A program made the translations under genes and the position numbers. DNA of 45,601 nt from Chloroflexota bacterium (GTDB lineage Bacteria > Chloroflexota > Limnocylindria > Limnocylindrales > CSP1-4), in assembly GCA_003158295.1 (NCBI GenBank), contig PMIP01000016.1, positions 210 to 45,810 on the forward strand, read 5' to 3'. Shown in pieces: positions 13,246 to 18,845 of the stretch (position 1 is its first letter; each line of letters begins with the position of its first letter). Below the pieces are notes generated by a model that was not told the DNA's origin, made no database searches, and saw only the letters and a list, made by a program, of their open reading frames with translations.

Positions 13246-14361
13246 CTACTCCGGCAGGATCGGGAGCTGCGCTTCCAGGTGCCCCTCGCGGATACGAGCC
13301 GGGTAGTAGCGGGGCCGGTTGACGCGGGTCAGGCGGCGCGCCGCGAGTTTCTTGGTGGGCGGCTCCGGCTTCAGCTCCATCCCCGACGGAGACCACGGCG
13401 AGTGGTACCGGCCGTCGGCGTCCAGACCGCCGGTCGTCGGCATCCGGACGGTCTCGCCGGAACGAAGGTCGAAGCGTCCCTCGTGGAGCGGGCAGGCGAC
13501 CACGCAGCCCTCGAGCTCCCCGATCGAGAGTGGCGCGGACATGTGCGGGCAGCGATCGTCGCTGACCACGATCCCGTCGTCCGTCCAGGCCACCAGCAGG
13601 TCGAGATCCGCCCGCGTGACCCGGCGCATGCTCCCGGGCTCCAGGTCCGATACGGCGGCGATCTCGACGAACGGCGCCGCCCGTGTCCCGGGCGCTCGGA
13701 GCTCGCGCGGGAAGCGGGCAATGGGCGGAGCGGCGGAGGTCCGGCCCGATGGCGCCGACGGGCGACCCGGCTCTGGCGGGGCTCCTGTCGCGGCGAGGTC
13801 GTCGGCCAGGTCCGCTGGTGTCATGGAGAACATGACGACATCGACGGGCCGGTTGTCGCGGTCCGAGTCCCAGTTCCGGACCAGTCCCTCGTAGCGGAAG
13901 CCGGCCTTCTCGGCCACGGCCTGAGACGCAACGTTGCCGGGAAGGGTCCATAGGGCCAGGCGCTCGATGGCCAGCGATTCGAAAGCCCAGCGCGTGATGA
14001 GGCGGACGGCCCTCGTGGCCACACCGCGGCCTCGAGCCTCGGATGCCACCATGTAGCCGATAGCGTGGCGCCGTGAGTTGGGCCCCACGTGCAGCCCGAC
14101 CGAGCCTATGTACCGGTCGGACGCGGCGTCAGCTATCGCGAACTCGTACCCTGTTCCGTCGCGCCAGGATTGCAGCGCCATGAGGATGAAGCGTCGCGCG
14201 TCGGCCTCGGCGTAGGGCGCCGGGATGACCGGGATCCAGCGCTGGACGGCCGGGTCCTGGCAGGCGGCCGTGATGTCGAGCGCGTCGTCCGCACGGAAGG
14301 GCCGCAGCGATATCACGCCGTCGCTGAGCGGAGGATTCGGTGGGCTTAGCTTCTCGGGCAT
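13246..14361 (-). CDS. GNAT acetyltransferase fused to a Rieske [2Fe-2S] domain
   Basis: 371 residues. Residues 15-180 are a RimJ/RimL-type N-acetyltransferase: VISLRPFRADDALDI, the acetyl-CoA loop ARGRGVAT (109-116), and ERLALWTLPGNVASQAVAEKAGF (133-155). A Pro/Ala linker (185-228) leads to a Rieske domain (about 230-325): Cys271 and His273 in DRCPHMSAPL, and Cys290 and His293 in VACPLHEGRFD, the exact CxH...CxxH cluster pattern, followed by a typical ferredoxin-like strand region. The C-terminal ~45 residues are basic. No stop or frameshift lies between the halves. GNAT plus Rieske in one chain is not an arrangement I recognise. The acceptor of the acetyl group and the electron partner are unknown. 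Confidence 0.88.
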   Translation of the reverse strand: MPEKLSPPNPPLSDGVISLRPFRADDALDITAACQDPAVQRWIPVIPAPYAEADARRFILMALQSWRDGTGYEFAIADAASDRYIGSVGLHVGPNSRRHAIGYMVASEARGRGVATRAVRLITRWAFESLAIERLALWTLPGNVASQAVAEKAGFRYEGLVRNWDSDRDNRPVDVVMFSMTPADLADDLAATGAPPEPGRPSAPSGRTSAAPPIARFPRELRAPGTRAAPFVEIAAVSDLEPGSMRRVTRADLDLLVAWTDDGIVVSDDRCPHMSAPLSIGELEGCVVACPLHEGRFDLRSGETVRMPTTGGLDADGRYHSPWSPSGMELKPEPPTKKLAARRLTRVNRPRYYPARIREGHLEAQLPILPE

Positions 14362-14368
14362 GATCGGA

Positions 14369-14374
14369 AGTATG
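14369..14374 (-). promoter_or_regulatory. -10 element CATACT, leaderless start
   Basis: CATACT on the minus strand is seven bases before ATG 14361 of the GNAT-Rieske gene, the same spacing as other putative leaderless starts in this window. The first base departs from TAnnnT. Confidence 0.3.
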
Positions 14375-14421
14375 CCGGTTCCCTGGCCGGAGGCCGCCTT
14401 CCTCGATGTTGTGAGAAAGGG

Positions 14422-14455
14422 AAGGCGGGCCGGTGAGGGGGGGCCGGCCCGCCTT
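14422..14455 (+). other. Perfect 12-bp inverted repeat with G-rich loop
   Basis: Arms aaggcgggccgg (14422-14433) and ccggcccgcctt (14444-14455) are perfectly complementary around a 10-base loop tgaggggggg. It lacks a following T-run and lies between divergent genes, so it is not placed like a normal terminator. It could be the first hairpin of a structured leader for the gene at 14639, or an operator. Confidence 0.6.
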
Positions 14456-14525
14456 AGGTGTGAGCAGTGGCAGGGTCGTCGGGACAGGCCATCGGGCCCC
14501 TGACCGACGGACGCGCCAAATTCTA

Positions 14526-14555
14526 CCGGGCGACAGAGCTTCCTGCATCGCCCGG
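14526..14555 (+). other. Second hairpin of the 14422-14638 leader
   Basis: Arms ccgggcga (14526-14533) and tcgcccgg (14548-14555) are perfect, with a 14-base loop. A further potential stem (cagggtc... with ...gcccctg, about 14471-14502) lies between this and the first hairpin. Together they give the next gene a folded 5' region of about 200 bases. Confidence 0.5.
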
Positions 14556-15689: not shown

Positions 15690-16181
15690 GGCGCGCGGTT
15701 CGGCTCGAGCTCGCCGCGGGCCTTGCGGGCCGCGCGGGATCAGACCGACACGTGAGGCTGGAGCGTAGCGGAACCATGCCCGCCCAACCAGCGCCTCCAA
15801 TTCCACCGGGCCGTAGCGGCGCGAGTCGATCGACGAGGCGTTGTTGTCGCCGAGCAGCCAGGCCTGTTCCGGGCCCAGGTGGAGTATCCCCGCCGAGATG
15901 CGGATGTGATCGCCCGGACCGGCGGCCACCCTCTTGATGGCCAGGAGGCCGCTCTCGGGCTCGTGGAATACGACCACGCTGCCGCGCCGCGGCCAGCGTC
16001 TCGGCGTGGGGTCAAGGAGCAGCCAATCCCCGGCGGCGAGGGCAGGAGCCATGCTCTCCTCGGCCACGGCGACGCGCCAAACGCCGCTGCGCGCGCGCCC
16101 TAACGCGTCCGCAAGAGGGGACAGCGAAACGCCGGAGGATGTACCTCCGGCGCTCGACTCGTCCGACGGCTCGAACGTCAC
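15687..16181 (-). CDS. sodX: Nickel superoxide dismutase maturation protease (S26)
   Basis: Signal-peptidase-like serine protease that trims the Ni-SOD propeptide to free the His1 ligand. 164 residues from GTG 16181, whose GTGA overlaps the sodN stop. Catalytic Ser43 in EESMAPAL and Lys83 in LLAIKRVA give the Ser-Lys dyad; GDNNASSIDSRRYGPV (111-126) is the conserved box E. There is no clear membrane helix, unlike true signal peptidase I, which fits SodX acting in the cytosol. The C-terminal ~20 residues are basic low complexity. The stop lies in a tandem repeat. Genetic coupling with sodN makes the assignment firm. Confidence 0.92.
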   Translation of the reverse strand: MTFEPSDESSAGGTSSGVSLSPLADALGRARSGVWRVAVAEESMAPALAAGDWLLLDPTPRRWPRRGSVVVFHEPESGLLAIKRVAAGPGDHIRISAGILHLGPEQAWLLGDNNASSIDSRRYGPVELEALVGRAWFRYAPASRVGLIPRGPQGPRRARAEPRA

Positions 16182-16597
16182 TTCTTGGTGGACCAGAAGA
16201 TGTCGGCATACTCCTTGACCGCGGCCTCGAGCTCGGCGGCAGCCGCGGCGTCGATGTTCTGCTTGTTCTTGCCCGCGAGCTTGAGGATCTTCCACGTTCG
16301 ATCGTGGAGATCCGGGTAACGCTCCACGTGCTCGGGCTTGAAGTAGTCGGCCCAGATGACCGCGATCTCGTGCTTCACGATCTCGGCGTGCTGCTCCTTC
16401 ACCGCGACGCAGCGGATCAACTTGTTGCGGTCGGCAAGATCGGTGGTTCCTGCCGGGATCTGGCCGATCAGCTCGACCATTCGGGCGACGGTGCGAGCGG
16501 CAAGCTCGGCAGCGTGCGGGTCGTAGATGCCGCACGGAACGTCGCAGTGTGCGTAGGCGGTTGTGGGCGGGCGAAGCCAGCCGGTTGCTCGGAACAT
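16178..16597 (-). CDS. sodN: Nickel superoxide dismutase precursor
   Basis: Converts superoxide to oxygen and hydrogen peroxide. 139 residues. The nickel hook HCDVPCGIYDP is diagnostic: His17, Cys18 and Cys22 in the precursor become His1, Cys2 and Cys6 after removal of the 16-residue propeptide. The rest is the four-helix bundle (TVARMVELIGQ, LADRNKLIRCVAVKEQHAEIVKHEI, WADYFKP, DLHDRTWKILKLAGKNKQ). AGGAG lies six bases before ATG 16597. It is followed by its protease in an overlapping pair, a standard layout in actinobacteria and cyanobacteria. Confidence 0.96.
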   Translation of the reverse strand: MFRATGWLRPPTTAYAHCDVPCGIYDPHAAELAARTVARMVELIGQIPAGTTDLADRNKLIRCVAVKEQHAEIVKHEIAVIWADYFKPEHVERYPDLHDRTWKILKLAGKNKQNIDAAAAAELEAAVKEYADIFWSTKK

Positions 16598-16944: not shown

Positions 16945-18354
16945 ATGAATGGCAGTTACGTGGCCGAAACCCGGGTCAGGGCCGCGGCCCCCACCCGCAA
17001 GGTACGTCGTGTGCCGATCCCGCGCGTCTGGCCCGTCAAGGCCAGCGACTTCTACGCGCTCCTGGGCGGCAATGCGCTGCTGATCGCCGGCATGTGGATC
17101 CGCCACGGCAATCTCCGCGAGCTCACGACGCCCGCCGGCATCTTCACCGCGATCGGAGAGCTGTGCGCCCTGTACGGGACGTACCTCGTCCTGATCCAGC
17201 TGATCCTGATGTCGCGCAATCCGTGGCTCGATCAGGTATTCGGCCAGGACCGCATCACCGACGCCCACCGCTGGGTCGGGTTCGGCGCGATCTGGCTCCT
17301 GGTCTTCCACGCCATCTTCACCACGGTCGGGTTCGGGATGGGAGTGAATACCTCCCCCGTGGACGAGGCGATCGCGCTCCTGACGACGTACCCGTACGTC
17401 CTCTGGTCGGCGGCTGCGCTGGGGCTTTTCATCTTCGTGGGGGTCAGCTCGGTCAGGGCGGCACGCCGCCGAGTCTCGTACGAGACCTGGTATGCGATCC
17501 ATCTCTACACGTACCTCGCCATCGCCCTCGGCTTCCTGCACCAGATCTTCGTCGGAGTCGACTTCACCACCGATCAGCTCGCGACGCTTTACTGGATCGC
17601 GTTGTACGTGGTCGCCTTCGGCATCCTGCTGGCGTTCCGTTTCGGCCAGCCGATCGCCGTCACCTCGCGGCATCGCTTCCGCGTCGCCAACGTCGTCGAG
17701 GAGGCGCCTGGAGTCACGTCCATCTACCTGACCGGTCGCGACCTCGACCTGCTCCCGGTTCGCGCCGGCCAGTGGTTCCGCCTTCGATTCCTGACCTCCG
17801 GGGACTGGTACAAGGCGCATCCGTTCTCGATCTCGGCGGCGCCAAACGGCCGCTATCTCCGGTTCACCGTCAAGGACCTGGGCGATCACACCGGCAGGTT
17901 GCAGCGCATTCGAGTCGGTACTCAGGTGATGCTCGAAGGCCCGTATGGCGCCTTCACCGGTCTGGCTCGCAGGAAGGCCCGCGTGCTGATGATCGCGGGC
18001 GGAATCGGCATCACGCCTCTCCGGGCGCTCCTCGAGGAGTTGCCGGCATCACGGGGCAACCTGACCCTGATCTACCGCGCGAGCAGCCCCCAGGAGGTCG
18101 TCTTCCGTGAAGAGCTCGATCAGCTGGCCAGCCTCCGCGGCGCCACCGTCCACTACCTCGTGGGGCGGCGTGGATCGCGGGAGATGCCGACCGATCCGCT
18201 CGAGCCGCGAGCCCTCCGCCGCCTCGTTCCCGATCTTCACGAACGTGACATCTACATCTGCGGGCCGGCCGGGATGATGGAACGCGTCCTGAGCGGATTG
18301 CGCTGGCTGCGCATCCCGTCCGCGCAGATCCACTACGAACGGTTCTCGTTCTGA
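16945..18354 (+). CDS. Ferric-reductase-like bis-heme flavocytochrome
   Basis: 469 residues. The N-terminal half has about six membrane helices (about 38-235) with two His pairs, His108/His122 and His186/His199, spaced as in the bis-heme ferric reductase/NOX domain. The C-terminal half is a ferredoxin-NADP reductase module: FAD site HPFSIS, NAD(P) site GGIGITPLRALL and terminal CGPAGMMERV, ending in the aromatic FSF. It would move electrons from cytosolic NAD(P)H through FAD and two hemes to an acceptor outside. The next gene, an exported FMN-binding protein 20 bases downstream, is the likely acceptor. Confidence 0.9.
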   Translation: MNGSYVAETRVRAAAPTRKVRRVPIPRVWPVKASDFYALLGGNALLIAGMWIRHGNLRELTTPAGIFTAIGELCALYGTYLVLIQLILMSRNPWLDQVFGQDRITDAHRWVGFGAIWLLVFHAIFTTVGFGMGVNTSPVDEAIALLTTYPYVLWSAAALGLFIFVGVSSVRAARRRVSYETWYAIHLYTYLAIALGFLHQIFVGVDFTTDQLATLYWIALYVVAFGILLAFRFGQPIAVTSRHRFRVANVVEEAPGVTSIYLTGRDLDLLPVRAGQWFRLRFLTSGDWYKAHPFSISAAPNGRYLRFTVKDLGDHTGRLQRIRVGTQVMLEGPYGAFTGLARRKARVLMIAGGIGITPLRALLEELPASRGNLTLIYRASSPQEVVFREELDQLASLRGATVHYLVGRRGSREMPTDPLEPRALRRLVPDLHERDIYICGPAGMMERVLSGLRWLRIPSAQIHYERFSF

Positions 18355-18374
18355 AGCCGAGGAGAGATAGAAGA

Positions 18375-18845
18375 ATGCCAATGAGAGCCGTAATCGGCAC
18401 CTTCCTGACAGCCGTCGCGCTGGCCCTGCTCTTGAGCTTCAAGACGCCGGCCACAGCCGGACTCAGCGCTCCTGCGGCCGTGAACGGCCCGGCCGGCTCC
18501 CCGGCGGCGGCCGGTTCCCCGGCGGCGGGCGGCGTGCCGGCGGCGGGCAGCACTCCGGCGCCGAAGGGTTCATACACCGGTCAGCTGACCGGCTCCACCG
18601 TCCAGACCCCGTTCGGTAACGTCCAGGTGCAGGTAACCCTGCAGGGCGGGAAGATAACCGACGTCCAGACATTGCAGCTCCCCAGCGGCGGGCACTCGTC
18701 GCAGGTCAGCCGGTACGCCGCGCCGCAGCTGCGCAGTGAGGTCCTCCAGGCTCAGAGCGCCCAGGTGGACAGTGTCAGCGGCGCCACGTACACCAGCCAG
18801 GCTTATCAGCAATCCCTTCAGTCGGCCCTGGATCAGGCCGCCTAG
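18375..18845 (+). CDS. Exported FMN-binding (flavinylated) protein
   Basis: 156 residues with an N-terminal signal or anchor helix (5-21), an Ala/Gly/Pro/Ser linker (25-63), and one FMN_bind domain (about 66-154). DSVSGAT (132-138) matches the DxxSGAT flavinylation motif; Thr138 would carry FMN by a phosphoester bond. The ribosome site GAGGAGA precedes ATG 18375. It directly follows the flavocytochrome gene. Such pairs act in extracytosolic electron transfer. The FMN transferase ApbE needed for attachment is not encoded nearby, so it must be elsewhere if this is real flavinylation. Confidence 0.88.
   Translation: MPMRAVIGTFLTAVALALLLSFKTPATAGLSAPAAVNGPAGSPAAAGSPAAGGVPAAGSTPAPKGSYTGQLTGSTVQTPFGNVQVQVTLQGGKITDVQTLQLPSGGHSSQVSRYAAPQLRSEVLQAQSAQVDSVSGATYTSQAYQQSLQSALDQAA

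Follow-up and report, generated by a model that had tools for sequence, protein, structure and literature searches.

The analysed window, a stretch of 45,601 nucleotides from a member of the Chloroflexota (Limnocylindrales, CSP1-4), carries at coordinates 13246..14361 on the minus strand a gene that starts with ATG and encodes a GNAT-Rieske fusion protein of 371 amino acids. The plus strand of the same interval is broken by stop codons, and the open frame lies on the minus strand only. The protein is composed of a RimJ/RimL-like GNAT domain (residues 10-185; 13807..14334, minus strand) with the acetyl-CoA loop R110-GRGVA, an Ala/Pro-rich variable linker (residues 186-214; 13720..13806, minus strand), whose length is 15-37 amino acids among relatives, and a Rieske-type ferredoxin domain (residues 215-371; 13249..13719, minus strand), in which the cluster ligands C271, H273, C290 and H293 are encoded at 13483..13551 on the minus strand. 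Both domains score well above the Pfam cut-offs: Acetyltransf_3 (PF13302) matches residues 19-156 (E 2.6e-31, 109.6 bits vs a cut-off of 25.4) over profile positions 4-138 of 138, and hence as a whole domain, and Rieske (PF00355) matches residues 232-311 (E 1.5e-15, 57.3 bits vs 20.3). An earlier note, made from the sequence of the window, had described one uninterrupted frame holding a RimJ/RimL-like GNAT with its acetyl-CoA loop and a Rieske domain with four ligands. This description holds, with exact coordinates, an intact R110-G-R-G-V-A loop and four intact ligands; the strand, which the note did not name, is minus.

In the window's genus the fusion gene is the only gene between an LLM oxidoreductase gene and a LOG-family gene. 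Farther out lie a nickel superoxide dismutase gene (16178-16597, minus strand) followed by a gene for a putative signal-peptidase-like protein, a pair found in synteny next to the LLM oxidoreductase gene across the family. A ferric-reductase-like flavocytochrome gene and a gene for a small putative FMN-binding protein (together 16945-18845, plus strand) are conserved beside the locus in the genus.

Several conserved elements precede the fusion gene on the same strand. A -10-like hexamer, CATACT (14369..14374, minus strand), is located 7 nt before the ATG and is conserved in the genus, and the gene may be transcribed leaderless from it. An RNA-like element of about 100 nt (14414..14513, minus strand) follows a promoter-like pair, ATGCAG - 17 nt - TAGAAT (14520..14548, minus strand), likewise conserved in the genus, and contains an almost invariant 3' hairpin with a pyrimidine-rich tail, GGCGGGCCGG-YNCCCCCTCA-CCGGCCCGCC (14424-14453, minus strand). 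Because a simple consensus scan reported neither a promoter nor a terminator upstream of the fusion gene, the promoter-like and terminator readings are based on conservation. In 20 of the 21 genomes of the genus the hairpin pattern is restricted to this locus, with one occurrence per copy, so that G018, with its two loci, has two; G009, which is without the locus, is the exception. The segment of about 100 nt folds better than its shuffles (z -3.15) and has no Rfam match at the gathering score, and a covariance model derived from 12 sequences gave no match at the loci of other genera, including that of G093. Since the stem does not vary, covariation neither supports nor refutes the structure. 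Possible readings of the element are a small RNA whose loop is rich in C and an attenuator ahead of the fusion gene.

The fusion is not a product of assembly. An uninterrupted frame over both halves was found in 16 of the 21 congeneric genomes, in 17 copies showing 68-88% identity, which excludes the possibility, raised in the earlier note, that an assembly error had joined the two halves. The remaining breaks correspond to NN gaps or contig ends: NN gaps interrupt the seemingly split genes of G006 and G011, the gene of G007 runs off two contig ends, and in G019 a gap between contigs falls exactly at the fusion locus, the LLM oxidoreductase gene beginning 224 bp from the start of a contig that has the hairpin at its base 8, and the LOG-family gene ending about 110 bp before a contig end. 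In G009 neither of these neighbour genes was found, the locus not being assembled. With so many separate intact genomes a frame artefact can equally be ruled out, and no truly split GNAT and Rieske genes were found among the 21 genomes of the genus. Two copies of the fusion are present in G018, where two copies of the whole syntenic block lie on contigs C200 and C210 and differ in sequence, their proteins being 76% and 69% identical to that of the window; this duplication perhaps reflects a mixed bin (6% contamination).

Pairwise dN/dS values within the genus ranged over 0.12-0.17 in the GNAT half, 0.10-0.22 in the Rieske half and 0.4-1.6 in the linker, with mean identities of 75%, 81% and about 30%, respectively. 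Purifying selection acts on both domains, and the linker is nearly unconstrained. There is no in-frame start codon, within the linker or close to it, that all sequences share, which speaks against an internal start from which the Rieske half would be translated by itself. Given these domain and linker values and the lack of a conserved start codon in the linker, the fusion is most simply read as one polypeptide in which two constrained domains would be joined by a loose tether. The same data bear on the redox-gated acetyltransferase suggested in the earlier note, in which the state of the [2Fe-2S] cluster would switch the GNAT domain so that acetylation follows the cellular redox state. In favour of such gating, both domains of a single chain held by selection keep their catalytic or ligand residues, and a gene for nickel superoxide dismutase is conserved nearby; against it, a linker of 15-37 amino acids with so little conservation gives no sign of a fixed interface, and in other genera the Rieske domain occurs without the GNAT. 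Hypervariability in both length and sequence is as expected of a flexible tether and lends no support to tight coupling, and we consider redox gating quite improbable. The broader proposition that acetylation is redox-controlled or redox-coupled, in its activity or its substrate, through the covalently attached Rieske cluster is also improbable, if slightly less so. The Rieske half had low confidence in two AlphaFold2 models built from few sequences, and these models are therefore silent on domain packing.

The GNAT half retains the R-x-x-G-x-A loop in 45 of 49 sequences, every fused one included. It shares its whole fold (residues 10-185) and this acetyl-CoA loop with RimJ/RimL-type GNATs (PF13302; PDB 2fck, 6c30, 1s7l), at 17-26% identity in the fold search; the solved RimJ/RimL-type structures found are, unlike the fusion, without a Rieske domain. 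Resemblance extends from RimJ, RimL and a putative ribosomal-protein-serine acetyltransferase, which are among the nearest solved structures, to polyamine acetyltransferases and to the self-immunity or antibiotic acetyltransferases MccE and bleomycin acetyltransferase, and with likenesses this varied the substrate cannot be read from the fold alone. The score against the equivalog for the RimL L7/L12-serine acetyltransferase (PRK10151) was 22.1 bits, far from its cut-off of 184, and the GNAT half matched none of the antibiotic acetyltransferase models at their cut-offs. The nearest structures would suit a RimJ/RimL-type protein N-terminal acetyltransferase to which a Rieske domain became attached by chance, a neutral fusion of two domains with unrelated jobs, and it fits such an accident that the halves were not seen as adjoining separate genes among the genomes examined: standalone relatives of the GNAT half (36-49% identity) occur elsewhere in the family, none of them seen next to a Rieske gene. 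A neutral fusion would hardly be retained in every assembled congener and in G093, though, when one mutation could split it, and we regard this explanation as doubtful.

The Rieske half finds its best sequence and fold matches among the ferredoxins of aromatic dioxygenases. Its ligand spacing, C271-x-H273-x16-C290-x2-H293, is shared with CarAc (1vck), the naphthalene dioxygenase ferredoxin (2qpz) and the HcaC and AndAb models, and the ligand motif is present in 52 of 52 relatives. High-potential Rieske proteins carry disulfide cysteines, in C-x-H-x-x-C and C-P-C-H; these are absent from the Rieske half of the fusion, as they are from the dioxygenase ferredoxins, which places it in the ferredoxin type. 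It differs from the dioxygenase ferredoxins in the fused GNAT, in that no dioxygenase alpha subunit was found in the genus, and in a conserved insert of about 35 amino acids (TTGGLDADG..H..W.P) ahead of the last strands of the domain. The Rieske proteins of other genera possess the same insert together with T-R-V-x-R-x-R-Y motifs, and apparently form a subfamily of their own. Scores against the HcaC/AndAb-type ferredoxin-subunit equivalogs were 40-51 bits, below the cut-offs of 113-150.

The usual ferredoxin role is unlikely for this domain. Ring_hydroxyl_A (PF00848), the alpha subunit of Rieske oxygenases, was found in none of the 21 genomes of the genus, which are 69-95% complete, vs 4 of 14 controls; we thus rejected a ferredoxin serving a Rieske oxygenase, and the Rieske half probably uses a partner other than a classical oxygenase. 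Only one other Rieske match is present in the window's genome, in a frame adjoining an FeS-assembly protein, which from its sequence we take to be SufD-like. The missing alpha subunit also weighs on a two-step enzyme acting on one small molecule, the Rieske domain supplying electrons for a redox step and the GNAT acetylating the product, or in the reverse order. The protein has no mononuclear-iron oxygenase domain and no other catalytic redox partner was identified, so that this scheme appears unlikely, even with a gene context in other genera, described below, that points to small toxic molecules; the earlier note's alternative, that both domains act on one small molecule, would be compatible with that ancestral MarR and efflux setting.

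Outside the genus, the fusion was found in one other genus of the family (G093, 57% identity), while in the remaining genera where the Rieske half has a match this domain stands alone (51-65% identity). No further fusions were present among 177 genomes of the class, nor among 400 phylum-wide genomes at E <= 1e-20. The fusion is thus confined, as found so far, to two related genera of uncultured Chloroflexota. A mobile gene is not indicated, as 72,556 plasmid records gave no match covering most of the query and 50,697 phage records gave no match at all, and a role in anti-phage defence was set aside with no PADLOC match. The earlier note had also considered that relatives might encode the halves as separate genes. 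This applies to the Rieske domain, a gene of its own in other genera, and to no genome within the genus, and the separate Rieske gene makes the fusion derived rather than false.

In other genera the gene order is a divergent LLM oxidoreductase gene, marR, a DHA2-type MFS exporter gene, the Rieske gene and a convergent LOG-family gene. A conserved MarR - DHA2 MFS exporter - Rieske cluster was seen at loci L050-L062 and L072-L089; in nearly all other-genus loci its three genes are co-directional between the LLM and LOG genes, and the exporter was not found at that place in L057, L058 and L060. The distance from the exporter to the Rieske match is about 50-500 bp in the loci measured, and in a few loci a DUF4349 gene is located between the two. 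Like the fusion locus, this cluster has an orthologous Rieske half in the corresponding position, flanked by LLM and LOG; it differs in having a separate Rieske gene, no GNAT, and both exporter and regulator. The order in G093 is LLM, MarR, MFS, GNAT-Rieske and LOG; MarR and MFS are missing from this place in the window's genus. We infer that the single-domain Rieske protein is the ancestral state, and G093, with MarR and MFS kept and the GNAT fused to the Rieske domain, is an apparent intermediate. The separate trees of the two halves are compatible with a single origin of the fusion, which the AU test does not reject (p 0.11 for the GNAT half, 0.57 for the Rieske half), without deciding for it; position and synteny favour one fusion event, after which the regulator and exporter would have been lost. 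That acetylation replaced efflux is kept as only a suggestion, since distant MFS relatives are present elsewhere in the window's genome.

In other genera, the company of MarR and a drug-type exporter suggests that the Rieske gene takes part in a response to small toxic molecules. By analogy with these neighbours, the most likely role of the fusion would be the acetylation of toxic amines, the Rieske half being an electron carrier co-localised with the GNAT, to which we assign a probability of about 40%. The fusion protein would serve the same xenobiotic or toxic-amine response as the MarR-MFS-Rieske operon. Its GNAT half would N-acetylate an amine with acetyl-CoA, carried by a toxic small molecule or, with lower likelihood, by the N-terminus of a protein, and its Rieske half would exchange single electrons with a partner other than a classical Rieske oxygenase. 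The flexible linker would keep the two halves in the same place, with separate chemistries and not as one allosteric switch. Most likely, then, the fusion is a detoxification enzyme with two tethered domains that work independently. The function is read from the neighbours of relatives, the fusion gene standing alone in the window's own genus, and the great diversity of substrates among RimJ/RimL-like GNATs counts against it.

The earlier note knew of no described GNAT-Rieske enzyme, and our literature search, with most subscription journals outside its scope, likewise found no description of such a fusion. An iron-sulfur domain and a GNAT are also joined in one chain in Elp3, a tRNA modification enzyme with a radical-SAM [4Fe-4S] domain; this domain is unrelated, without a Rieske fold, and sets Elp3 apart from the fusion, as does its action in tRNA modification. 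As a pairing of domains GNAT-Rieske is new, but it does not amount to a new kind of system. Its evolutionary route is visible in living genomes, from a separate Rieske gene, through a fusion beside the exporter, to a fusion alone, and it provides a means of testing whether N-acetylation can be linked to an iron-sulfur electron carrier. It also draws attention to a family of Rieske ferredoxin-like proteins with their own insert and no classical oxygenase partner, which accompanies MarR and efflux genes in this family of Chloroflexota.
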